Shown here piece after piece: positions 1 through 52,770 of a DNA stretch of 64,000 bases (position 1 is its first letter; each line of letters begins with the position of its first letter). The translations under genes were made by a program, and so were the position numbers. The DNA comes from Xiphias gladius. Taxonomy: Eukaryota; Chordata; Actinopteri; Istiophoriformes; Xiphiidae. Below the pieces are notes generated by a model. That model worked only from the letters and a program-made list of their open reading frames with translations, searched no databases and was not told the origin of the DNA. The stretch lies in the NCBI RefSeq assembly GCF_016859285.1, contig NC_053407.1, positions 18,204,632 to 18,268,631 of the forward strand, written 5' to 3'.

Positions 1-3000
1 GTACTCCAGCTGGCTTTCTGCACCGTGCTGCGCGGTAAGATCCCTGACGAGCGCACGAAGAAGCCCATTTAAAAACTTTACACGCACTTATAGATTTGTG
101 TCAAGTAGAGAGAAGGAGAGAAAAGAACTGGCTATGCAGCAAGGTATTTGGGCCGTTTGACACTTGAAAGGTCTTGAGCAGAGAGGATGCTTCATGGCAG
201 GTGTCTCCATCCACCTGCACATGCTCTTCCTGAGTAATGAGGTTGACATGAAAAGTGACCATTTGTCTCTGAGATTAAAACTTTGGATGTTTTTGACAGA
301 TACATTATCTTCTATTTATTTTTGCTTTATGTATAAATGACTATTACTTTGCATCATGTTGAATGTGTGTAATTGCATGTCTGGTGATTATAATATATTT
401 TAAATATGCAGTGGGACAGTTTTTTTTCTGTCTGTTTCAGGTGCCAAATGGACATACAGTGGTAAGTCTGAGAATATTTTCCTCACATTTCCTCACAATT
501 TGTCTGTTGTAGATCATTAGAGGGGATAGAAATATATTTTTTTACATCCAGTTTTCATCTTAGGCGCATCTGCAGTCCCAGTCCGTCTGCACTTGTGTGC
601 CTTGGTCACCCACAGTGGTATTCTTCCCTTAAACCAGCACTAACTAATTGAGTGATAGAATTCGATTTGATGCAACTCTCTGATAGGCAATAACGTTAGT
701 GCCCCCGCAGCAGTGCTTTGAGCTGTCAATGCCAAATAGTAAAAACTGAAGTGATAACAGCATCAAATGCAGTGCTTTCTGATCAAAAGGGAAAAAAACC
801 ACTCTGTGGCCCCTCTCTGATCCCCAAAGACAACTAATGTTGACAACCCTCCTGTCACCTCATGTAATTGTAGACTTCATTGTAGACTCTGCAATTACAA
901 CATATCATAAGTGGCTGACCGCCTTTGCCTCATGCTTTAAGGTCTATACGCAGAAACTTCTTGAACCATGACTGTCTCTTACATAAACTGTGCTCAGAGC
1001 ACATAAACCGTGCTCTTGTCATTGTTAGTCAAAAGGCTGTTGCGTTCAGGGACTGAATGTTAAAACCAATAAGTAGGTAGGTGCAGCAAATTAATGTATT
1101 ATCATTTTCCTTCTTAATGTTTTTTCAGACAAATAGTTTTGACTGTTCCAGTCATTGCTCAAACGTACTGTCACCTTTTTAAAATAACTTTACAGTGTGC
1201 AAATTCACACAGACACATCAGCGAGGAATGTAATAAAAAGAGCTATCATTATTGCTTGATTCAGACCTCTGAGAAAGGCTGATCCATCCAATCTATTTTT
1301 ATTATAGCAACAGCTTGGAATTAATGGCAGCAAATGGCCCTTCGTAGATACACAGTTGTTCATCTCCTACCTGTAGAAATTCAGAAAACTGGGACAACAC
1401 ATAGACAAACAATGGAAAATTAGTAAGAATACAGGAATAAGTACCACAGTCATATAATCACAAACCTTCTTAATGATAACACATTATCTAGTAGTCAAAC
1501 TGGAAAGGTTTGTGATGACCACTGAGGAAAAGAGTTGATGTGATAAGAATATCAAAAAAAACAACAACAAAGAAACCCTCTGGCCTCCCCCAAAAGTGCA
1601 GCGTGGTGGATTTCGTCCTCACTTACAGTCAAACACTTGAGAGACCTTGTCATAGTAGACAGGAGTCTGGAGGGCTGGTGGCACTTTCTGTTGAGAGAAG
1701 CACAGCTGACTCATACGACTTATCTCCACCTCAACACTCCACCCTCTGGCAAAGGACAAACAGTGAACCTTAAAATGGGAGTAAAAGAAAAATGATACTG
1801 GTGATGATTGTTGATGTTATGTTCAACGGTTTACCCTGCAAGAAGCCTTGTATAAATCTTCTTATTTAACAGTCCTTTTACATAGAAAAGGCCCTATATT
1901 TAAGAATTTGCCCACAGTCATGTATGTCCTACCAAGGACTCCCAAGGGGCCACTAAAGGCCACCGAAGGCCATTCTTAAAGGACAGGCTTGGTCTAATTA
2001 AAACAGTAAATGAAGTGGATACTGTTTAATTATAGCCATAAGAGTAACTTTCTTATTATACGGAGTGTTTGCCCGGATTGAAATATGATTTTTGCTTCAA
2101 ACAAGTATGCAGTGATCTCACAGCTTTGTTGACGCCTTTTGGCATGTCTTGTACAATCAGTCCACTGGGAACTGACAGTCGCGTTGGAGGCAGGCTTCAT
2201 GCTGTGTCATTCATATTTAACCACAGTAAGCTGGCATATGGTGAATGGTGGATTTTTATATTAATTCTGGCCAGATATTGAATTAGTGGTAAATATGCAG
2301 ACATGTAAGAGCACTGGTACATTAAAGGCCTTTCATGGCATTTGCTATTCAGCTACTATTATGATTTGATGGGGTCCATTCATCGCAAACTATTACCCTC
2401 ACTTTATACTGAGCATCATGTTTGAAAAGCTCAGTATGGATGATTACACTTCAGTCGACAGACTGAATGAAAACATCAGAAATCAAGAATGTCCTGTTTT
2501 TCTTGTCAGTCAATTACGTATTACCATTTTCTTCTCTCTTGCAATGTTTCAAAGCCCATTGAGCCTCATTGCTTTTCGCAGACACGCCATTGAGAGACAC
2601 CCTCATGCAGCTGAGGTCACTTCATAAACTGGATGACTTGATTTGCAAATGTGGCCATTTTTTCACTGTCTTGTGCTTTATAGTAACCTCTCATTTGGAG
2701 AGAGACAGCGTTCTCACTGGCTCTCCCCACACACAACAGCCTGGTTCTCACTCTCGCCGTTTTAGAAAGGGCCAAGAGCGTAGCCGCGGGCCTTTCCCAT
2801 GCCGCCTTGTACAAAGATAATAATACTTCACTTAGATTACAGATAAAATGTTTAGTAAGCCAGGACAACCCTGGCTCTCTTTGGAGCCATCCTCTATTCA
2901 GTTTCATACTGGGACATGTGCATTTGCTCATTTTCCCTTTAGAATGGAGCAGTTTAACATTTGAGAAGACATGCAATGTGTCCCTAGTACAGCTGAGGTG

Positions 3001-6000
3001 AAACACACTTTTTGGATGACTTAATGTATATGTAATATCACTGTACAGTATATTAAAACTGTGAAAATTTCAGTTGGGCTACATCAAGTGGCAGCTATGT
3101 CTGAGAGGTGTTTTATTGGTCATGATTTACATTGATGCTGTTTTAAGGGCCAGAAGGAGAGCACCACTGGTCCAAGAATTATCCATATTGTGGTGGAGCT
3201 TTCCAGTCTCCAATAGACATCAAGTCAGATCTGCTAAGGTTTGACCCTACTTTGCGTCCGATTGAGGTTCAGAACTACAACCTGTCACCCGATGAGCAGC
3301 TCACTCTTGGAAATAATGGACATTCCGGTGAGTATAAACCATCAGTGGTATCCATAAAACATGTAATAATGTACAATGCTTTAAGTGTAATGTTTACTTT
3401 AACCTAATTTCATTACAGGCAACAAAAGTGTGTATCAACCTAAGAAAATATTTAACAACAGTATTTTTTGTTTGGCTTCAGATCCAGAAGTTCTTCAAAT
3501 CAAAGTGATGCACTAGTCGTAATCATTAGAGATGGCCCCACATAAACGTGGAGTGGTCTGTTCTTGCTGTAGAGACCTGATTTCTGGGTCAACCTTGAGA
3601 AAATGATAGGAGGATTTTCTTTCTACATCTGACACAGCAATTTTCCAAAATCACTGTCTTATTATCTTAGCTGTCCAATTACCTAAAGAGAGAGCTCCAG
3701 TTTTAGTGTGGGAAAATACGAGCAGAGATTAGTCATCTGCTCTGCATCTATTAGGTCTGATACATCTTAACAAGAGAATCAAGTTTAGGTTTAATGTTTG
3801 ATAAATATTTATAACGCAATCTTAAATTTAATTGTTAAATACAGTAATCAGTACATAGATAACCGTACTCCTGTGCCACAGAAAAAATATTTGGAGGACT
3901 AAGGCAGATGAGTGTGATAATAGATTTATTCATTCTGCTTTTTTTTAAGGTAAGAAACTGTTTCAGTCAGAGAAAAGTGAGGTAAACTAAAAAGTATCTT
4001 GCCGAACTGGTTTGAATTGTGTCTTACATGTTACTTTAAAGGTGCTATATGAAAGTTTCTGCTATCGCTACATAGTCAACGTTAGCATTAACAGCTGTTT
4101 ACTTGCCAAGAGCCTCAGCCATTGTTGCGTTTACAAGAGGTTAGAATACACCCTCTGGGCAGAGCTATTTCTTCATCCTCTCATGTTGGACTGAGGGCGG
4201 AGTGGATGCTACAGTGTATCACTATCACAAAGCAGTATCACGAGACGGGCGGGGACTAGCTTATCATGCTAACTTCAGTAGAAGAAAATAAGTGATGGAA
4301 ATATAAGCAAAACAGGAGTTAACAATTGCCGTTGCTCTCCACCGCTGGAGACAGCTCTTGGCGAGTAAAGGAATGAAGTTTGATGCTGAACTCACAATGT
4401 TTCTTCAACACTGGTAAGTAGAAAGTTGTTAATGCTAATGTGGTCTATGTAGCAATAACAAAAACGTAAATACAGCCCCTTTAAGTGCAATGTAGAGATT
4501 GCTTTATATGCGGAATTTCAGTGACAGCCGCTGTATAGCTGAACAAACGTGTGATGTCTGCCCTGTGTTGGTGATGATTGAATTGTTATAATATCTGTGT
4601 AAGTAAACTTTTAACCACTGACAGACTGCAAAAAACAGACAATGGCTTATGTATGCTTGCCTGATGGGCCTCAACACCACAAGCAGAGTGGCATCATCAG
4701 CGTGACGTGTGTCTGAAATAAGCTGACAAAGGCTTTTCAATGGTAAACATTCGTCATACAATGACAAACATGTGGACAGCCCAGCGTCACTCCGCCATAA
4801 TGTATCTTAAACGTAGCTACATCGCTTTTGCAAAAGCACTTTGACATCCCAGAGTGGGCCACGCTGACTTCTTTAAATAAAGTTAAAGTCGATGTTTCTC
4901 AATTCCCCTGATGTCAACTGAAGTAACCCATTCCCTGCTTTTATGTGTGCTGCGGTTTCACTTCTTTTGATCCACAGTGCAAATCTCCCTGCCCTCTAAG
5001 ATGCATATCTCCAGCCTTCCTCATCGTTACACTGCAGCTCAACTGCATTTCCACTGGGGCTCGTCCAGCAGACCTGCCGGCTCTGAACACAGGGTGAACA
5101 GTAAGCAGTATGCAGCTGAGGTAAACAAAGCAAATAGCACTTCTTACTACCCTCTATTGATGTCAAACACAGCGGTGGAAAGTAGCTAAATACATTTTCT
5201 CTACTACTACAGTTTTAAGGTACTTGTACTTTACTTGAATATTTCATTTATTTTGCTCCTTTATACATCCATGCCAGTAAATTTCTGAGACAAATTTTCT
5301 ACATTTTTTACTCCACTACATTTATCAGCCAGTTGTGGCTAATATAGTTAATACGTGTACATTGAAGATGAAGATTTTACAGGGCAAACAATTATGCATT
5401 GCCATGCATTGCTACTGAATACGTTACCCAACATTATGTTAGTTATAAAAACAACTCCACAAACAAACAGATCCACCTTAAAAGTTAATGCATAGTAATA
5501 ATAATCTATAATATATACAAATACATGTTGTGATATATTTAACACTCTGAGTGGCGCCATTTTGCAGTACATTTTGTTGATAATACTTATATATACTTTT
5601 AAACAAGTGAAATTTTAAATGCAGGACTTATACTTGTAATGGAGTATTTTTATACTGTAGCATTGCTACTTTTACTTGGAATGGTTAGCTTTCAGCATTT
5701 GAGGTTAGCTCAGACCTTTCATTTAAATAGGTATCTCAGTTATCTGCAGCATCAGGCGACTGCACCTCTGGCTCCAGACAAATGATCTAACACTTTATGA
5801 CCTAAACGTGCGACATTTGACTGGCAGAGAAATTAGAGCCACTGACACACTTCAAGACTTACAGACCCTGCTTAGGCTTAAGGAACTCTCAAAAGCTCTG
5901 CATCTGCATTTTACTGTTCCAGTTTCTTGACACTGAGGCGTACCCGCCAGACAAAAGTCAGACAATGCTTATTGTGCATCTTCCATTTTATTGTGTATTC

Positions 6001-9000
6001 AACTGCAACATCAAATTGGATGCTTGTATGAAACGCATTCTAATTAAAGACACTTAGAAGTTTTTAACAATTAACAAATTTTGAGTCTTTAAAATCTCAA
6101 CTACTAAGATTATAAAGCGTTAAGCTCATAGTTTTCATCCCTTCACCAAGCAATTTAGCATGATTTGTCACTTAGTTACACACATTAAAAGGCAAAGACA
6201 TAATTTCAGTTAGCCTCAGTCTGTATAGTATGTCAGCGTTGCTTATTTTTGAAGGGTTTAAGAGGATTAGAGTACCAGACTATTATATGCTTTGGTTTTC
6301 ACCAACCTCTGGAAAGGAGTGGCTGTCTGTGCTGTTTAATGTGTCAAGCCCTGTAGGCAGTTTTCACACACTAGTTTTCTCTTTTTACTTTCCTACTTTC
6401 AGCGAGGCAGAAGATTTGACAGTAGCATCTAAAATTAAGAGTCTATTTTATGAAAAAAACAAAAATAGGAGTCTGTTTTATATAATTTGGTATCATTTGA
6501 ATTACAGTGGGTAGAAGCTGTAGTGGTTACAACCTGTGTGCTTTTATGTGACTATGCCCCAGCTGCAGCAGAGCCACATATAAGGTGCTGTGGTTTGACC
6601 TGAGTTCTTGAGTGGACATGTCGAGGACATGCATCTTTTCAAGTCTCTCCAGACTACAGAACCACAGGTCCTTGATGACATGTTGTTATTGAGGGATGCA
6701 ATGATGGGAAATGTAACTTATCCCATAAATAGTGCAATTGTCTATGTTAATTGTCAAGAGAGAACAAAGACCATGAATAAATTTTGTCATATTTGGCTGG
6801 AATGACCAACATGCCTTTGTGTTGCACCGAACACACTATACTGTCCCCAACACAAGTGTATCTGGTGTTTATTTATGTGCTGTAAAAGAAAACCCACTGT
6901 AATAAATCTCCAGTGTTTCTTGCGTGCTTTTGTCATAGACTTTTCACAAATATCACATCCCCTGAACACCACAAGTTATTTCCGATTGAATAAACACCTA
7001 CAGCGCATTTGAAACATGTTATAATTAGTGACAACAGTCGCTGAAAATTTGCTTTTATAATAAGGAAATTTAAAAGAAATCTAAAGAGATGGTATAAAGA
7101 TCCAATCTGTTATCTCGCCTGCATGCTCTGTGAAACTACACTGCATGGGCTGCACACAAAGAAAAGATATAAAAATACAATATTAGTAAAAAAAACAAAC
7201 AAAACAAACATTTTTCCCTCATCAATGCAGTCCTGTTGATAGATGGTGGTGTCAACATGCGTAGCCAGGGGTTCATTTGTTGTGTGTGCCATTTTCCCCC
7301 AATTCCTAACAGCTTTTTCACTTGCTATTAGTAGTATTTTTACCAAATGTCTGTTGCTTCACATTATACTTTTTTACAGAGAAATTACAGAGACAAAGTA
7401 CCATAAAACTCATACTGTAGGGACCTAATTTCCTAGTATTTGCTTTACCATTTTAGTTTCCAACTCCCAAAAAACAGCTCTCTGAAATTTCAAAAAAAAA
7501 AAAAAAAAATATGTGAGTGATCTACATCGACTGATCGAGACTGTCCGACATCTACTGCCTATGTAACTGCCTACTTTTAACCTGGGTCTAATAAGGAAAC
7601 AAATGAGATTTTTCATCTACATGCTATTTTTGTTTTGTTTGCTTCAGATGCATGTGGTACACTTCAATTCAGACAAGTACCCCAATATGTCCATGGCTGT
7701 AGACAAATCTGATGGCCTGGCGGTACTGGGTGTCCTGGTTGAGGTGAGACACTGCGGACTCTGTTGTGGGGGGCAATGATCTTTTAATATCTGTGGAGCA
7801 GAACCATTTAACTATGTTTTCTGTCCAGGTTGGTGAGTTCAATCCTGCCTTTGAACAGTTTCTGAAGTTCATCAATGGGATTAAATACAGAGGTAAGTAA
7901 AGTGATGTTTTTCTTCAGCAATGTCTTTTGCAGTTTAGCCATGTTGAATATTAAGTATAAGTTATGAGCATGAGTAGTTAATATGAAAAAAACAGTCATC
8001 ACCAATATTCAGGCTTTGTTTGTGACACCTCATCCAACTAAAATTGTTGAAAACCTCCTGGAAAGGCTAATTTAGGCTTTTAACGCACAAACAAAGAGCA
8101 TTGGTTTATCCATTTTTGGGGTCAGAATCAACCCAACTCTTCATCACCTCATTCATGTGGCCATTATGGATTTTACTCTGACATAGTTGCTAAACAGTCA
8201 CAAAATACTTCTCTTATTTATTTAACCTGCAGATCAGAGAGTGCAAGTGCCCGGTTTCAACATCAGAGCACTGCTGCCTCCAAGTTTGGATCAGTATTAT
8301 CGCTACGATGGGTCACTGACAACTCCTCCGTGCTATCCTAGTGTACTGTGGACAGTGTTCAAGAATCATGTAACAATATCTCGCAAACAGGTGCTTCATC
8401 AATTAAAGTTAATTTTTCAAAGCAGATTTGAGACAACGATAAACTAGAGTGGCTCTCAGTAGAGCACAGACCTCCGCCAAGGCCAATGTCAAACCACATA
8501 CACCAGCCTTCAGAGAAAAAAAAAAAAAATCAAATTCCGGATCTGCCCCAAAATTGAATGGGTTTTCCCCTGGTCCATGCCAGATCCCTCCATCAAGTTC
8601 AGTGCAAATCGGTTCATTACTTTTTGTGTAATCCTGCTGACGTATAAACCAACAAATCAACAAACAAACAGACGTAGGTGAAAACATGACCTCCTTGGCG
8701 GAGGTAATAAGCCACAGAGAAACTAATGCTAAATTGATTTTTCAGACATCTTAATGTAGTCAGTCTCTTATATTTAAACTTAACTGGTGTGGAAAAATCT
8801 CTGTGCTTGTGTTTTGTCTTCCCAGTTTCTGGCCCTGGCAACAGCCCTCTACTCCTCCCATACCCAGGACTCAGCCCCTGTGCCACTGAATGGCAACTAC
8901 AGGAAACCACAGCTTGCCGACAGCCGAGTTGTCCTGGTATCTTTTAAGGAGGGTAAGTATGCCCTTTAAAACGGGCTGTCTTTATTGTTGGAGCATGAGT

Positions 9001-11455
9001 GCAAAGGTCACATAAACGACATGGCCACAGCGCTACTTTAAAAACGGCTAAAGGACAGGCTTGGGTGATGTGCGGGCATTTTTTTCTTTTGCAAAGCAAA
9101 GGGCTGTCAAGTGGGCTTTAGCTTGTGTGAAATCACCTGCTTGTGGTTGAGCTTATTTGTTGATGTCACTCTCAATCATCTTTAGAGTTGAGGGACTTTG
9201 ATGAGCTTGTTGGAAAGTAGGCCATCTTTTAAGACACAACAAATTAACTGTCCCTCTGACATACCGAGAATGTCTGCAGCCCTTAAATTTGTCCCTGAAG
9301 GCTTGCTTTTATGTGGCGGACTGGTTTACCGCACTGTATGGCATTTAGGTCCATATAGTGCAGTACTAATGTGCTTGTTTTCTTCATGGCAAAGCTTCCC
9401 TCTCAGTGCTATGCTTTTCTAATGGCACGTGTTTTGACATGGCAGTGGGGAATCTTCTGCTGTTAGCTTTCATAAGCGGCATTTAGAAGGCGATTGGCAT
9501 GTGCTCTTAGTTTATCACTCCAGGGAGTGCTGTTGCATGGTGGGCGTGAAGGCCCAATTTTGTTCCAGGGAGTATCCCAAGGACTGGGATGTTTTTTACA
9601 AGCTGTGATTGGCTCTGTGTCCGATGCAGGCAAAGGACTGCATGGCACTCTTACAGCCACATCTCCACTCACGAGGAAGCGAATCATTCAGCAGCTGCTG
9701 GTTGGCGACCTAGCAGACCTTGCTGATGAAGGGCTCTATCAGCTCCTACCGACTCACTCAGAGAAGCTCCATACTGGCAAGAAGAAAGTCAAGAACGACC
9801 TCAAGAACCAGCAGACTGAGACTCTGGCCAAGTCCAAACAACAGACGCTGAATCCATCCCTGTGGAAGAAGAGCCAGACCAACCGCTCCGTGGGAAAGTT
9901 AGGGCTGGCTGAAGACGCACTCTGCTACGTCTTGCTAGAGCAGAGAGTTTTCCATCAGCTCAGACAGTCCCACACTGAGAACCAGCTGGTTCACGCTCTC
10001 AGAGATGCAGTTTTCCCTGAGCTCAACCTCAAGAGCTACCTGGACTGTAAATCCGATTTAGCCCTCCCAACTGTCAGACATATTCTCCGCGGACGGCCAA
10101 CAGACGAGGCATTTGAGTTGGATCGCTCTCTGACAAAAGCCTTGATGAATCAGAAGAAGACCTCCACAGCAATCAATCAAATTGTGCCAAAGACAAACTA
10201 TGGCAGTTTCTCCCCTGCCTCTGTTTCCAGGAGACCACACAGCCAGGGTTATCCACATCCTTGGCTTTTGCCAATGGAGTGGGAAGACTAGAGAGATTCC
10301 TGACATAGTTGAGACTCACATTATGTCACTTTCTGTAGCAGACAACAGTTGTGTGTCCTACAATGAAAGACTAAAGTCACGCCCTGCATTCCTTTGACCA
10401 ATGTTTCTCACAGATGTATTTAATATTTAAATTATTATTTCCAGTATGTGCACATAATTATAGATTCTATCAGGAGGAAAGAGTGTATTATGAGTTAATT
10501 TACTGTAGTTATTGTTTTTGCAAACTTCCTCAACTGCATAACCAGTCATCACTAGTGACTCTGCTTAGTACTCTGTAAGCCGATTCTAAAACATTAAGCC
10601 AATCTGAATATGTACATTTTTGTCGTGGAGATTTGCAAAAATGAGAAATGGTTTCCTTTTTCACAATAGTTCTGTTTGCATAACTTTGCCTTTGAATAAA
10701 CTTCTCCATAGCACGTATTTCATGCTTGAAAATCTATATGCATCAAGCTACATGTAGTACAGAAAATGTCTGGCAAGGAACATTTACATTGTTATACTGT
10801 TTGCCAAGTTCAGGTCTATAGGGGCTAATTGTGGAGCTAACTAGTAATTATTGCCTTGCATAATATAGAAATGCAGACATAAACCAAAAGAACTTGCAAG
10901 AGCTAAAGCGCTTTACATAACATATCTATGTTCTCTGACACTACGCACATCTGTACAAATTGCCATTTACAATAAGTAGGGGAACAGCTACTGTAAAGTA
11001 CACAGTGGAGTTATTTTCAATAAAAGCATTATATTTGAATCATACATGGCAGATTTCTTCCCTACTGCATTTGCACCTTTCACTCTGAACTTATAGAAAT
11101 GGTATTATTACTTACATTGTGTTTTCTCTGCAAGGTTAGTCCTCTGCACGGTCACAGAAAGTTGGCGACTCTGCCAGCATATACAGGGCAAAACCCAGCC
11201 ATAGAGACTCACTGTGATATTGAACTTTTATACATTTATCTTCTATATCTCTACAGCAGAATGTGTAAAGCATATCAGGTTTTAGCTGCACACTTTTGAA
11301 CAGAAACAGAAGTCAGAACAGAGGAAACGGTCTGTGCCTTAGCCAAGGTATACATCCATGTCATGGAAGTGTGCTGTTTTGTGTCTTAAACTGTCCAGAT
11401 ATGTATCCCTGAATATGTTTTATTCATAATGACTTAAGTCAACCATCTAGCTGGG

Positions 11456-11505
<50 letters not shown>

Positions 11506-14346
11506 AATGGAAAAGATAACCAGATCCAGGAATGACATGGCATGGGCTCTATGGCTCACATGTTTACTGATATGCTTAATGAAGCTGTGAGCTGCCTGCC
11601 AAACTGCAGAATATCGAGATGAAATGGCTTTAAAACTTCGCTGCAACACGTAGTTCATGATGTCTGAATTTGAGTGAGTCAAAAACTGTCAATTTGCGTC
11701 ATGAAAAGGCTTGTTTCAGATATGAAAGACATTAAACTTATGATTTAATTGTTTTCTTTATTTGTCATGAAACCCCTAAAAATTTTAACTCTTTTTCCTC
11801 GAAAGGAACCGTATCTAAGGTGTCTGTCCCTCTATGAATTTCATTTTCACCTTCTCTTCTCTGTTTTTCTTTACTACTCAGCTGATCTATCTTGGATGAG
11901 CACTGGTATGTTGCTTTTGTGTACATTTTTTTATACATCTACACTTTTTGTCATATGTTGTCTTCTGCATCATCTCACACTTAGACAGCATTGAGGGATC
12001 CTGCCTTTGTGGACCACAGACACCTTGTTTTCTCTTCCGGAGTTTTAACAAATAAGGAAAATAATAGTTACAATGACCTTTTCCTTGTCTGAATTTAATT
12101 CCGTTAACTACTTAATAAGGGAAAGGAATAATCGCTTCAACATCAGAATCATGGCTTCAAATTTAAAGCTAATAAATTACCAAACTAAACCATTACTGGA
12201 ATAAATGTGCAGTGTATATTGCATATAACAGACTATGATACAGCACTGCTAATTAACTTAACAGCATAACAAATATTTCTTTCACCATGAAAACTACACC
12301 TTAACAAGTGAATATTTTCATTGTTTTAATTTGCAATAATTTATTTCCACTTTTTTTTTTTTTTTTTTAACTACACACACATACTCTATGCAAATATACA
12401 AGCCCACATACCAGATGAACACATGCAGACAAACAGTCCAGTTAGCACATAATCCTTTCTGCTTCTGTTGCCCCCATGCTCTGCAGGTTTACTGGTTCCC
12501 ATTCTGGTGGGCTCTGCACTGGGACTTGTTCTCATTGTCTCTTTAATATTCTTTCTATTAAGGCAAAAGAGGTAAGCAAAGGGCTGAAACAACAAAACAA
12601 GACCAAAGTTGTGCTCGTTGAAAACATGCTCTGCATCGTTGGCACAGCTGGTCAACTTGAAGATCATTAAGAGATGAGATAAGAGCTTGTGAGTTTGTCA
12701 GATGGCTCGAAACTGGTGTATCTCACACCTTTTGAATATGTCTGTATGTCTCTCAAAATCTCCCAATCTCACGGAAATTAAATTGAAAGAGCTGAACTAT
12801 TTTAGTGGGCAAATTCGGAGCTTACCATGACTGATCTTAGAGGGTGAGATTTAAATATATACTGTATAAATTGCACAATTGCAGAGGATATTTCAAGAGA
12901 ATGGTTAACCTTAATTGAACCATACATCTAGGTTTTACAAAAGAAATGATGGAGTTTATAGGGGTGTGTCCTCATTAGCTGGGATTTTTGGGAATGTTGA
13001 CTCACTTGTGGCACTTTTAGTCACCCATGACAGTGTGATGTGTAAATTATGAGTCAACTTTGTGTAATTGTGGTTTTCTATAAAAGACGAGCTGTACCCT
13101 GGAGAAGATTTTCTTGGGTTTGCATTGGTGTGTAATTTGAAGAGATTTTTATGGTACATAGATAAGAATACTTTTGAGAATTAACTTGAGAAATAAATTT
13201 GAGAAAAATAGCTTTTGGAGGAAGTGAAATAGTTATGGTGACTCATGTATTAACACTTAGCAAATTTGTACATAGTTTGTTAGGGAAGTGATTTTTATTA
13301 AAAAGCCATGCATAGCAGCAAACAGATTACTGAAAATTCAGCTTTAGTCATGCTGACATGAAACCTAAACTGAAGGAAATGAAAACAAATTAAAAAACTC
13401 TGTGGGAAAGAACTGAGAGTAATTGACAATTTTAAAATATTTAAAATATTAATTTCAAAAATATTTTTCATGGTCACCAGCATTAAAGCCTGACAAGCAT
13501 GTTTCATCTGTGTTAAAATGAATTTTGGTCAATAAGGGTTTCTAATGATGAAACGTTCAAATCTCATTAAGTTAAATATGTTCATATCATTTATTTCTGC
13601 AAGTAAATACCAATAAATACCTTCTGCTTTCAAACCAAATGTGTAGAACGGAAAAAAATAAGAGAAAGAAAAGCAATAGCAGCACCCAGTCACACTCCAG
13701 AGCTAAAATGTGCTTTGAAGTTGTCTCTTCACCAGCAGATATCACGTCCCCTCTTTCATTTTTCTATGCTAATGATGCACAATCCCCCTTTTGTTGGTAA
13801 AAGGCTAAGTGACAGTCTCATCACAGATGGGCTGGTTGCAGGCTTTCTGCATTAAACAGTGTCAAATGTTCCTCCTTTCTTCAAATTTTCCGCATATCAT
13901 CTCTTCCTCCCAGCTTCTGAAGTGATTATGTTTCCCTACAGCAAAATATCAGCAACAGCAGTTGTCTGTGTATACGTGGCTAATCTCTTGTGTAAAGGGA
14001 ATGGGTTGTAGTAGAAAATATGGAGAAATTAAGAGTTGGGGGGGGTAGATCACTTCGACATATTGCTCATATACAGTATCATGGAAGTAAAACACAAACA
14101 TTAACCTGATGGCAAAACAAACCTCAGCAAGAGACACTCAGTGGCAATGAAATAAACCGGCAGCCGATAGTGGTTGAAACTTCATTTAAGACTTCAAATT
14201 GCATGTATTTAAAGATTCAATTAAATTCTGAATGTCCTATTCCTATATTCCTTCTTTTATTTCTTAGATCTGCTGCTGAACAGGACAAAGGCAAAGGCGT
14301 TGGATACAACATTGGAGAGAGAGATGAGTACAGCTCAAGAGTATAG
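1..14346 (+). CDS. ca12: Carbonic anhydrase 12, transmembrane isoform (5' partial)
   Basis: This is a zinc enzyme that hydrates CO2 to bicarbonate at the cell surface. Exons: <1-34, 441-461, 3148-3327, 4978-5120, 7648-7743, 7829-7892, 8233-8390, 8826-8952, 11882-11905, 12487-12571 and 14268-14346; all have GT-AG introns and phase is kept throughout (1011 nt visible). The window opens inside the signal-peptide exon. Visible landmarks are the KWTYSG start of the catalytic domain, a YCGG cysteine and a TTPPC cysteine (the expected disulphide pair), NNGH (proton-shuttle His), E-M-H-V-V-H (two zinc His) and the GSEH motif region, then SLTTPPC with the catalytic Thr pair. A single membrane segment ([19 protein letters not shown]) contains a GxxxG motif, as in mammalian CA12, followed by a basic RQKR stop-transfer and a short tail ending SSRV. 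CA14 is the main alternative; overall similarity and the 15q-type linkage favour CA12. Confidence 0.9.
4036..4484. mobile_element. MITE-like element with short terminal inverted repeats in ca12 intron 3
   Basis: The left end TTAAAGGTGCTATAT and the reverse complement of the right end, TTAAAGGGGCTGTAT, match at 13 of 15 positions and enclose about 450 bp without coding capacity. This is the form of a non-autonomous DNA transposon. The family was not identified. Confidence 0.55.
5170..5690. repeat. Teleost dispersed repeat ('gtggaaagtagctaaatac...' type), ca12 intron 4
   Basis: The sequence around 5175-5690 contains the characteristic phrases ggtacttgtactttacttgaatattt and ctccactacatttatcagcc. 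I recognise these from an abundant non-coding repeat in fish genomes. A second, diverged copy lies in a commd4 intron at 31316-31900. Confidence 0.6.
8447..8706. repeat. Dispersed repeat with GGCGGAGGT end, copy 1 (ca12 intron 7)
   Basis: A run from 'agagcacagacctccgccaaggcc' to 'gacctccttggcggaggt' is repeated in reverse orientation at 19752-20008. A fragment in the same orientation as that second copy lies at 45330-45410. The short open frames in it are not genes. Confidence 0.6.
9630..10291 (+). CDS. ca12: Alternative 3'-terminal coding exon of ca12 (soluble long-tail isoform)
   Basis: An open frame runs without a stop from 9494 to the TAG at 10289-10291. A good acceptor (gtccgatgcag) at 9629 joins the ca12 exon ending at 8952 in the right phase and reads SFKEG-KGLHG. 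The resulting enzyme would carry about 219 extra residues in place of the micro-exon, membrane segment and cytoplasmic tail. The tail has a leucine/aspartate-rich stretch ([20 protein letters not shown]), a lysine-rich stretch ([11 protein letters not shown]), a predicted helical part ([20 protein letters not shown]), one N-x-S sequon (NRS), and no membrane segment. I do not recognise a family for it. No strong donor was found inside the exon. AATAAA signals follow at 10695-10700 and 11019-11024, consistent with a true last exon. The open frame, acceptor and phase are seen directly; use of the exon in a transcript is inferred. Confidence 0.6.
10695..11024 (+). terminator. Candidate polyadenylation signals for the long-tail ca12 transcript
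   Basis: AATAAA occurs at 10695-10700 and 11019-11024, about 400 and 730 bp after the stop codon at 10291. They would end the alternative transcript before the transmembrane exons. This is motif evidence only. Confidence 0.4.
11456..11502. repeat. (TG)n microsatellite
   Basis: About 23 uninterrupted TG units ending in tgcgcaatgg, in the long ca12 intron before the 24-nt micro-exon. Confidence 0.95.
11882..11905 (+). CDS. ca12: 24-nt micro-exon of ca12 (juxtamembrane stalk)
   Basis: The segment between a pyrimidine-rich acceptor (ttactactcag) and a gtatgt donor is only 24 nt, phase 1 to phase 1, and encodes A-DLSWMST-G across its two junctions. It links the catalytic domain exon (ending 8952) to the transmembrane exon (12487). 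Skipping it keeps the frame, so an isoform eight residues shorter is possible. Confidence 0.7.
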
Positions 14347-42700: not shown

Positions 42701-44228
42701 GTGTTAGCGGCCGGATCTGAACCTTTCATCATCTCTGAAACACGACTCTCCAACAATTCATCCATACAATCAATGAAACTTGACTCCAAAAAGGTACAGC
42801 TGATTTAAAATGCCATTTCTAAATGTCATACATCGTGCATTGCAGTGATGTCAGTACTGTTTTTGTCACTTTGCCAATGCTTTTAAATGAAAAATATTTT
42901 TATACATGAGTGAAATTGAAACAATCAATTTTACATATTAATAATGGATGAAATGAAATGTGTAAAGTCAAAGGGGTCTTGCAGCAGTCAAGCACGGATG
43001 AATACACTGTATTCTATTTGTCTGGCACTAAATGGCACACAGTGGTGCATTTAAATAAAGACTCAGCTGGTGGAGACCAGAAACTGAGCTAAAAGGGGAG
43101 TGACTCAAGTGGCCAAAGACACAACTTCAACACAAATGCTAATGTTGCTCCAAATCTGCTGAATGTGTGAATAGGCAACTATTTGCCAATATGTTCCCCA
43201 CTTTTTTTAAAAGCAATAATATCAGTCAGTGTTGTTGTTATTGTTGTTTATAGCTTATTGCACTGTAGTCAAGGGGGAAAAAAACAATCAATGCAGGTTT
43301 AAAGGAAAATTATGTTTTTGTCTTTCTTAACTCAGAAAAAGTTAGTCGTGGGTTTTTCAGAGAAAATCTCCACCGTGGACCTCCAGAGCTGTCAGGAGTA
43401 CAACAACTCCTGCGCAGATTGTGTCCTGGCCCGGGACCCATACTGTGCCTGGACTAAGTTTGGTTGCGCCCCGACAGTCCCGTAAGTGTGGACACTGTTC
43501 ATACCAAGACTCTTTAGTCCACAATGAGAGGCTCAAACATTTTACAGTATAAAACAGATCAGCAGGGCAACGTCATAGTTATTCATCTCTCACATATAAA
43601 AAAAAAAAAATGCAATAGATGGGAACATATGTTTTGTTTTTGTTCACAGTGGGGGCATTCAGAATGTCAGAGATGGGCAAATAAATGTCTGCTCTACATC
43701 AGTAGAAGGTAACTAGTTATTACACTGTTATCATTCATATTACACACTGGCTAGAGGCTCACAAAAAAACGGTCACATCCATATCCACATCCTTATCTTC
43801 TTTTTATTCTTTTAGAACAAAAGCAAGTAAACCGGGCCAAACGGGAGACAGTTTCATCATCACCAGTGAATTTGAGGACAGTTCATTCAGTCCCCCTGGG
43901 TGTCCCTTTCTACCTGTCATGTCCCATAGACTCTTACCACGCTGTCTACACCTGGGAACACAGGGGCCAGAGCAGCCCTTGTCTGCAGATGCAGTCTAAC
44001 TGCCTGCACCTCATCCCTGCCATGGCACAAGAGAACTATGGCGTCTACGAGTGTGTTTCCAAAGAGAAAGACTACATTAAAGTGGTGAAAAAATATCAAC
44101 TTACAGAGCAAATAATCCCAGACACAAATACGAGAATCATTAATCCTAATGAAATAAATGGTGCATCAGCTGTAGTGTTGCACACAGTATCGATTATACT
44201 TGGACTGGCTGCAGCAATGTTGCACTAA
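36416..44228 (+). CDS. sema7a: Semaphorin 7A (GPI-anchored)
   Basis: A membrane-anchored guidance and immune semaphorin that signals through plexin-C1 and beta1 integrins. Exons: 36416-36536, 36885-37024, 37884-37925, 38061-38156, 38422-38524, 38737-38847, 39269-39411, 40365-40543, 41315-41423, 42303-42498, 42681-42793, 43336-43481, 43650-43708 and 43816-44228. They sum to 1971 nt, 656 aa (human 666). The order is signal peptide (MRRLVLLFIFLTWDYQIVFS), sema domain (GEMYVGGNDFVLKLD, DTRVYALFTSSWN, CGTNGH), PSI domain (SCQEYNNSCADCVLARDPYC), Ig-like domain (FYLSCP to YGVYECVS) and a hydrophobic C terminus after NGASA, as for a GPI signal. Odd points: no RGD motif at the integrin site (K-V-D instead) and a furin-like RAKR between the PSI and Ig domains. 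Confidence 0.94.
41150..41290. repeat. Interspersed repeat fragment in sema7a intron 8
   Basis: Contains gtgaaaatcctatcattagtttttgagataatctgctaac, phrasing recognisable from fish interspersed repeats. A few hundred bases either side show no coding signal. Confidence 0.35.
42010..42190. repeat. Probable SINE-type fragment in sema7a intron 9
   Basis: Runs from tagcgccctctatgggcactgaac to ccctgatgaagacctagagtcgatatg. The wording resembles fish short interspersed elements. It is not coding. Confidence 0.3.
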
Positions 44229-50067: not shown

Positions 50068-50567
50068 NNNNNNNNNNNNNNNNNNNNNNNNNNNNNNNNN
50101 NNNNNNNNNNNNNNNNNNNNNNNNNNNNNNNNNNNNNNNNNNNNNNNNNNNNNNNNNNNNNNNNNNNNNNNNNNNNNNNNNNNNNNNNNNNNNNNNNNNN
50201 NNNNNNNNNNNNNNNNNNNNNNNNNNNNNNNNNNNNNNNNNNNNNNNNNNNNNNNNNNNNNNNNNNNNNNNNNNNNNNNNNNNNNNNNNNNNNNNNNNNN
50301 NNNNNNNNNNNNNNNNNNNNNNNNNNNNNNNNNNNNNNNNNNNNNNNNNNNNNNNNNNNNNNNNNNNNNNNNNNNNNNNNNNNNNNNNNNNNNNNNNNNN
50401 NNNNNNNNNNNNNNNNNNNNNNNNNNNNNNNNNNNNNNNNNNNNNNNNNNNNNNNNNNNNNNNNNNNNNNNNNNNNNNNNNNNNNNNNNNNNNNNNNNNN
50501 NNNNNNNNNNNNNNNNNNNNNNNNNNNNNNNNNNNNNNNNNNNNNNNNNNNNNNNNNNNNNNNNNNN
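50068..50567. other. Assembly gap (500 N)
   Basis: Exactly 500 N, which suggests a placeholder of arbitrary size and not a measured gap. Frames reported across it are meaningless. Confidence 0.99.
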
Positions 50568-52770
50568 AATTTTACACTTGGGAACATAGCGCTATATGTC
50601 CATAAGCGCTGCTCACATATGAAACAGAGAGCTTGATTGGTTTACACTGTTAACTATAAAATTACACACAAAATTCACAGTTCTGCTTTTGTTTTAAGGT
50701 AGAAATATTTAACTTCTCACTTTTTGTGTAGGGAAATATAGACTATAGTGAAACAGCACTGCATGTTTTGTGTGTAATTTTTTTTTTTTTTTTAAATCTT
50801 TCAAAAGAGTTATAAAACAGTTTTTGGACATATTTGCAGCAACAGTGTCCAAGGTTCAAGCCTTTGGTTGGGCGTTTCCATGGCAGCGGGTGATTGACTG
50901 AAGGCCAGGATTGCTAGGAGACGCACTGTCGACGTCCGTGGAGTGCCGCTGACTGGAGCACATCACAGCACATGGAGCGTATGAACATTGATACAAGACA
51001 TGATTTTTTTTTTTCCCTCCCTCTTTCAGCAATTACACGGACTGGTACAAACCGTCAAAACTCTAAGGAACAGGCAGTCCCTTTAGCCTCAGCGCTATGC
51101 ACGCTACCCTGTTAGTAAAAATCCAAACTCAAGAGTAACTAACCTGTCCAGCAGAGTAACGTGGGGAGTACTCAAACCAAACATTCATGGCCCCTGGAGA
51201 ACACCAAATGCAGGTGGCGCTGTCAAAACACGAAGAGAACTTAAATTCCCTCTCTTTGGTCACCACAGTTTCGACAAAATGAGCACACGTGTCAAAACCG
51301 ACACCCGGGATACTGATTAATAAGCAAAGAGGAATTTTAATTTCACTTAAAATCTAACAGACCTGATGTGTGAGATTTATTAGTGTGTTCTCTGAGAAGC
51401 AGATCCGCAAAAGTTTGGATTCTTTAATGGATTTTAATAATCTAGTTTTGTGGTAGATGTGCTTCTATATGGCATTTTGACACCTAAAGGTTGATCAGAC
51501 CAAACGAGCCACTAGGAAGAGAAAAAAATCAATTTCAGTCATACAGGTCATTTCTGTTTTGATATATCACTGTTATTGTGGTAGGCCAGGAGTGAGAGAT
51601 TTATTCCCCGGTTTATGAGCACTGAAAATAGGATGTTATATCTAAGGAGCCACAAATCTTCCTGATAGTTATTAAAGTGGTCATGATCACTCTGCCGCAG
51701 ACACGCTGGTGTGCAGCGCTCAGTCTGTCACGTTCCTGCTGCGACTGCCTGACAAGCGCCTTGAATTCATGGTGGGGCCCCAGGGTCGTGTCTGAGCTGC
51801 TGTGTAATAATCCTCTTTATATAACCGTTTGGAGAACACCTTGGCAAACGAAACCGCGCACACTTAAGAATTTGATTTGATATTGATGATCTATTTAAAA
51901 TGAGAGTTACACTTGATGTTTTACTGAAGAAATACTTTACAGACATCGTACAGTAACTGTGCACTTATGCTGACTTGCCAGTTTATTAGCTACAACTACA
52001 CAAGCTAATGTTCACGCCATGTGTGTAAATGGGGCTGGACAAAATGTCCCCTTTTAATACAATACAAGTAAATTATCACTGAAACAGTACTTCTCTGAGA
52101 CAGTGTTGCCAAAACTGAACAATAAAAGCTTCACATGGATGGGATTCATTGCACAGCTGTTGTGTTAGACTGTGTTAGATTGTGTAGGTGTACCTAATAA
52201 ATTGGTAACTCAGTGTATGTACTGTATGTTGTGCCGAAGGGAGCTGATCCTGTGAGATAAAAAAGGTTGAAATGCAGAGTTTGTAAAGCCAATGGAGGAA
52301 GGATTCTCTCTTCGATTGATATCAGGTGTTTATTGCTCTTTGATATAGTATATGTGTGTGGGTGTGTGTGTGTGGGTGTGTGTGTGTTGATGTCTGTTTT
52401 AGTTGGGGTGTTGTACATGTCAGTGTGATGGATGATGTCCTTGCCATGGCCTCTATTTTTGTGTTTTGTTTAGGTGGTCTGTGTGAGACTAAATTTAAGA
52501 GCTTTGGTTACATGCTGATACAGGTCATGTGTGCAATGGATTATTGGCTTGTTGTTGAATTTCGGATGATGCAGTCTTATCTTGTGACCTATAAAACTCC
52601 AAGGTAGAAAGTTCGATCATATTGATATATTTTCATGAACTTGAATTTTTTTTCCTAGAATGAGGAGCATGATGTGCTTTGCTTTGTTTTTGTTTTGTAC
52701 TTTGGTGTTTAAGAATAATATTTCATTACTTAAGTGTTAGAGAAAGCCCCATTAACTTAAAAGCTGGCTT
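50568..52770. other. Gene-poor stretch with a TG-rich tract
   Basis: No exon was recognised. At 52187-52220 tgtacctaataaattggtaactcagtgtatg is a dispersed fish repeat end. A TG/GGTG-rich tract lies at 52349-52390. At 50873-50887 tttccatggcagcgg resembles an RFX half-palindrome, but the match is weak. Confidence 0.4.

Follow-up and report, generated by a model that had tools for sequence, protein, structure and literature searches.

The question raised by this locus is whether the carbonic anhydrase gene ca12 of the swordfish (Xiphias gladius) has a second way to end, and what that second end encodes. The window, i.e., the whole stretch of DNA that was analysed, comprises 64,000 nt of contig NC_053407.1 (assembly GCF_016859285.1; positions 18,204,632–18,268,631, forward strand). 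The coding part of the exon in question lies at 9630..10291 on the + strand, encodes a tail of 219 residues and ends with the stop codon TAG at 10289–10291. Quite probably, it is a real and conserved alternative last exon of ca12, derived from a piece of an LTR-retroelement gag gene that was inserted in a ca12 intron.

The gene in the window is the swordfish ca12, encoded on the + strand, with the window starting inside exon 1. The 3′ part of this exon (1..34, donor GTAAGA) likely encodes the end of the signal peptide, since its translation resembles the hydrophobic N-termini of the proteins P0006 and P0010. The predicted isoform X2 (P0002) starts with MLGAKW and is devoid of this normal-looking signal-peptide end; thus, the first exon of the X2 model was probably mispredicted. 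Reading frame and GT/AG borders define, all on the + strand, exon 2 (441..461), exon 3 with catalytic-domain sequence (3148..3327; PF00194 is listed for P0002), exon 4 with the FHWG region (4978..5120), exon 5 with H119 (7648..7743), exon 6 (7829..7892), exon 7 (8233..8390) and the last catalytic-domain exon (8826..8952). The exons from 441 to 8952 form a single open catalytic-domain frame. The membrane isoform continues on the + strand with a juxtamembrane exon (11882..11905), a transmembrane exon (12487..12571; maximal Kyte-Doolittle value of 2.84 over 19 residues) and an exon encoding the cytoplasmic end and the stop (14268..14346). A GSALG stretch is located in the transmembrane exon, and GxxxG is a dimer motif. 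Among 96 tail-bearing proteins, H93 and H95 of the FHWG region, which we take to be two of the zinc ligands, were invariant, and H119, presumably the third ligand, was conserved in at least 90%. The gene thus combines a PF00194 domain, retained active-site histidines and a downstream transmembrane exon, as carbonic anhydrase XII does, the assignment to XII resting on the source names of the matched proteins. The next downstream gene (15955 to about 20000, + strand) reads like man2c1 (alpha-mannosidase class 2C1), and the open frame at 43755–44228 reads like the last sema7a exon with a GPI-type end; both assignments are presumptive. At about 50070–50570, three frames look open because of a run of N, i.e., an assembly gap or a withheld stretch.

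The last catalytic-domain exon ends with a phase-1 donor (GG/GTAAGT after 8952), which would be common to the tail and membrane isoforms. The acceptor before 9630 (GATGCAG/GC) joins this donor in frame, and 219 residues follow the junction codon up to the TAG. Thus, the claim of an earlier sequence-only reading that the acceptor at 9629 is in phase with the last catalytic exon was borne out. The tract before the acceptor is, by eye, poor in pyrimidine runs, which would suit regulation. Immediately upstream of the acceptor, positions 9600–9629 read GSVSDAG in frame, and similar residues occur in the read-through proteins P0062, P0094, P0117 and P0121; this similarity may mark a conserved splicing element. 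The same reading had held that the frame is open far beyond chance. In agreement with this, its open length was matched by none of 20000 sequences simulated with a Markov model fitted to the flanking intron and by one of 20000 (5e-5) simulated with the exon's own composition. The frame belongs to a stop-bounded stretch of 271 codons (9476–10291), the longest on the + strand of the window. The part from 9476 to 9629 is also open, but its GC content by codon position is not coding-like; that of the tail exon resembles the carbonic anhydrase (CA) exons. The swordfish open frame comprises 272 codons, the first ATG being codon 224 and thus deep within the tail, and, therefore, the tail in swordfish depends on splicing from an upstream exon. 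Two candidate poly(A) signals (AATAAA) of the tail isoform follow on the + strand at 10695..10700 and 11019..11024, and an ATTAAA is present at 11731. All three precede the membrane exons, which start at 11882, as had been proposed for the AATAAA signals.

The tail itself contains three conserved elements on the + strand: block 1 (9665..9751), with two predicted helices and a motif; block 2 (9917..10159), a predicted four-helix module that gave the best gag match; and the C-terminus PMEWED (10271..10288). The AlphaFold model of the tail (mean pLDDT of 63.6) placed helices within tail residues 12–38 and 99–182. The helical blocks reached mean values of 69 to 86, and the values were lower elsewhere. 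Fold searches with this helical model of moderate confidence returned nothing at E ≤ 0.001. Searches of Pfam and PDB with the tail gave no acceptable match; in particular, it was not matched by a SCAN, gag or pentraxin model of Pfam.

The tail exon was found in many fish. When the fused protein was used as query and the tail alone was scored, 104 proteins among 1178 candidates matched at E ≤ 0.001, of which 88 end with MEWED and 101 with ED. Most are named carbonic anhydrase or ca12, one is named carbonic anhydrase 14, and the others are hypothetical, uncharacterized or unnamed. Two names of tail-bearing ca12-like proteins, carbonic anhydrase 14 for P0072 (Synchiropus picturatus) and carbonic anhydrase 3 for P0110 (Colossoma macropomum), are probably misnamings. 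The best match, 'carbonic anhydrase 12 isoform X2 [Xiphias gladius]', was 100% identical; hence, the tail isoform is already an NCBI prediction. A search with the tail of Scleropages yielded 79 matches, 11 of them new, including Arapaima, Brienomyrus, Megalops, Albula and Aldrovandia. The tail-bearing species thus fall into Osteoglossomorpha, Elopomorpha and other teleosts, which indicates that the tail was already present in the teleost ancestor. With a tail-only profile, for which the best 7994 of its candidates were scored, 114 matches were obtained at E ≤ 0.01, the newly found ones being mostly unnamed. LOC117428008 of the sturgeon Acipenser ruthenus (E 8e-40) was the sole named non-teleost among them; it is annotated as a separate locus without a CA domain. 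None of the named matches of this profile came from gar, bichir, shark or tetrapods, the search covering predicted proteins as length-limited candidates. The expectation that the frame is conserved in related fish was therefore confirmed by the 104 proteins, the further Osteoglossomorpha and Elopomorpha and the sturgeon homologue.

Identity statistics were calculated for 96 of the 115 proteins of both searches, after 19 mostly short or odd models had been removed by hand. Mean pairwise identity was 0.763 for the catalytic domain and 0.553 for the tail, within which block 1 (0.759), block 2 (0.626) and the last seven residues (0.825) stood out against the linker (0.387). The identities of CA domain and tail correlated with r of 0.81 over these 96 proteins, the largest value in 500 permutations being 0.22. 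At the protein level, this pattern points to purifying selection on the tail as part of the host gene, and CA domain and tail occur together in full-length models. Two tail cysteines were lost independently in several species, which argues against a required disulfide. In the salmonid proteins P0086, P0089 and P0104, the block 1 motif is repeated several times in tandem. P0103 of Myxocyprinus asiaticus combines a SCAN domain, a CA domain, the gag-derived tail and a transmembrane end; its SCAN part is another retroelement-like piece, and the protein may be a fused gene model.

The origin of the tail was indicated by a further match of the tail-only profile, the gag-like protein P0217 (E 1e-7), which is unlike the other matches and aligned to the tail in two collinear parts. 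A test profile of 99 tail sequences, with P0217 and the sturgeon protein left out, scored P0217 with 46.1 bits (C-terminal part alone: 32.2), as compared to 11.1 for the best of 5000 shuffles. In the swordfish genome, P0217 found six dispersed partial copies on five contigs (E 8.3e-18 to 7.8e-6), two of which carry internal stops. Searched against 387 open pieces of the six loci, which had been chosen with P0217, the 99-tail profile matched four of these six copies (E 1.3e-8 to 6.9e-7). The 4.5 kb downstream of five of the six copies were then scanned for pol domains. One copy is followed on the same strand by RVT_1 (E 3.3e-8) at a distance of 637 bases, another by RT_RNaseH (3.2e-11) and Integrase_H2C2 (1.3e-8) at 2.7 and 3.4 kb, respectively. 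Both pol-flanked copies belong to the four that were matched by the tail profile. The pieces scanned in the remaining three flanks (4, 3 and 6) had no Pfam match, and some looked RT- or gag-like by eye. In the window, no pol relic was detected (best E 0.45). The profile matches show that the tail is homologous to gag of retroelement copies in the swordfish genome, and the flanking pol domains show that these relatives belong to an element with pol. The earlier remark that the tail is not recognised as a known domain stood as far as accepted Pfam and PDB matches are concerned, and fell in that the tail is not an orphan.

A passage of PMC8278194 gives QX3EX4-hydrophobic-X2R as the consensus of the retroviral major homology region. 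P0217 has QSSKETPQGFLIR near the end of its aligned part, which fits this consensus; such a motif occurred in 311 of 20000 shuffles and is thus weak on its own. At the corresponding position, the tails do not preserve this region; the single in-tail match (P0075) lies elsewhere. Since the major homology region is missing from the tails, the assembly part is absent and the tail is no complete capsid.

An unlikely competitor of the retroelement reading is that the tail is a host-born exon and that its likeness to gag stems from uptake of the exon by a retroelement or from a shared host ancestor. In its favour, neither the tail nor P0217 was matched by a curated gag family; solved capsids did not match them either. 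Moreover, the genome-wide swordfish searches missed each other's places: the tail query returned a single match, the ca12 exon itself, and the ca12 exon was absent from the six places found with P0217. The link is therefore distant and rests on profiles, with P0217 as the bridge. However, the gag relatives are spread over five contigs, two of the six with internal stops and two with pol pieces, whereas the tail occupies one place. In addition, P0217 runs on into the MHR-type motif that is absent from the tails, and the tail is encoded in one block without introns, which is what exonization of gag should give. Accordingly, descent of the tail from an LTR-retroelement gag, exonized into ca12 before the teleost radiation, is the most likely origin as judged from sequence comparison; exonization would be older still if the sturgeon copy sits in ca12.

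Very unlikely, in turn, is a separate nested gene, with the ca12 fusions as products of gene prediction. The sturgeon LOC117428008 and LOC127535205 of Acanthochromis, both annotated as stand-alone loci without a CA domain, would fit such a gene, but the late ATG of the swordfish frame, the in-phase junction and the parallel divergence of CA domain and tail speak against it. So do the three proteins P0006, P0010 and P0069 (501, 502 and 490 residues), in which a signal-peptide-like start, the CA domain and the tail are found together. The contigs behind them comprise at most 2232, 1791 and 2030 bases, whereas the corresponding parts span more than 10 kb in the swordfish genome. Since CA domain and tail lie on contigs of 1.8–2.2 kb, these proteins most likely represent spliced sequence. 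Transcripts that join the catalytic exons to the tail in related fish are thereby supported indirectly.

The tail exon as a last exon of ca12 would replace the membrane anchor, as the sequence-only reading had proposed. In support of this, no transmembrane stretch was found in the tail (maximal Kyte-Doolittle value over 19 residues of 0.69 vs. 2.84 for the transmembrane exon). The N-terminus is hydrophobic in the relatives and at the end of swordfish exon 1. From the tail lacking a transmembrane stretch and the signal-peptide-like start of the relatives, we infer that the tail isoform would be a secreted enzyme. There is little to favour the converse arrangement, in which the tail would lie mostly within the membrane form, between catalytic domain and transmembrane exon. 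The predictions P0061 and P0103 do combine CA, tail and transmembrane segments, and a weak in-phase GT (CAGG/GTTATC) is present near the swordfish tail end, at about the exit point of P0061. Yet, these two are the only ones among the 104 proteins that end in this way; the third protein not ending with ED is a partial one. Finally, a chance open frame without function has next to no probability and was ruled out by the conservation in teleosts, the coding-like GC content by codon position and the conserved C-terminus.

For the gag-derived last exon of ca12, the following mechanism is proposed. An LTR retroelement would have inserted in a ca12 intron, and a piece of its gag would have been exonized. 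Splicing from 8952 to 9630 and polyadenylation after 10695 or 11019 would omit the transmembrane exons and yield a secreted enzyme with a helical tail. The choice between the acceptor at 9630 with early polyadenylation and the acceptor at 11882 would then decide between secreted and membrane enzyme. The gag-derived helices may let the soluble CA XII self-associate or bind a partner, thereby making up for the lost membrane anchor and the GSALG stretch in it. This last step is the least certain one.

The precedent for such a role of the gag module after loss of the anchor is CA VI-pentraxin. According to passages of PMC5723433 and PMC9032886, ca6 of non-mammals encodes a secreted CA with an added C-terminal domain, in which a pentraxin exon has taken the place of the exon that encoded the cytoplasmic domain when CA VI was, ancestrally, a membrane protein; a passage of PMC9032886 reports the protein to be pentameric in solution. 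As far as these passages go, both systems comprise a CA with an added C-terminal domain, the CA being secreted in CA VI-pentraxin and predicted to be so in the ca12 tail form. They differ in that the added domain is a pentraxin and its replacement fixed in the former, whereas the ca12 domain is gag-derived and comes from an alternative exon of a gene that still encodes the intact membrane form. The domesticated metaviral capsid genes of mammals and the SCAN domains are likewise long-kept host coding sequences from LTR-retroelement gag, as described in passages of PMC11011659. In contrast to them, the gag-derived sequence of ca12 forms a single alternative last exon in a gene for an enzyme, and, unlike the domesticated capsids, the ca12 tail retains what precedes the major homology region but lacks the latter. 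Compared with membrane CA XII, the tail isoform shares the gene, the catalytic exons and the active-site histidines and is devoid of the transmembrane (GSALG) and cytoplasmic exons.

Domesticated gag sequences are usually described as stand-alone genes. The swordfish locus would be an example of gag domestication in which an enzyme gene acquired an alternative last exon. The retroelement origin of the tail is new here and appears to be undescribed in the literature searched, since no paper on the tail was among the matches listed. The exon itself is already contained in NCBI protein records, plainly named carbonic anhydrase 12. A far-reaching and rather unlikely reading is that ray-finned fish have long possessed an enzyme-gag chimera whose secreted CA is multimerized or delivered by a module derived from a retroelement capsid. 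Such a chimera would be an extracellular pH-regulating assembly that works like the capsid-forming domesticated gag proteins, e.g., Arc, without being one of them. If the retroelement origin is true, ca12 has long retained a fragment of gag as its alternative last exon, in contrast to domesticated gag genes that stand alone. Should CA XII be secreted throughout the teleosts, it would be a second secreted CA and would bear on work on acid-base regulation in gill, gut and ear of fish.
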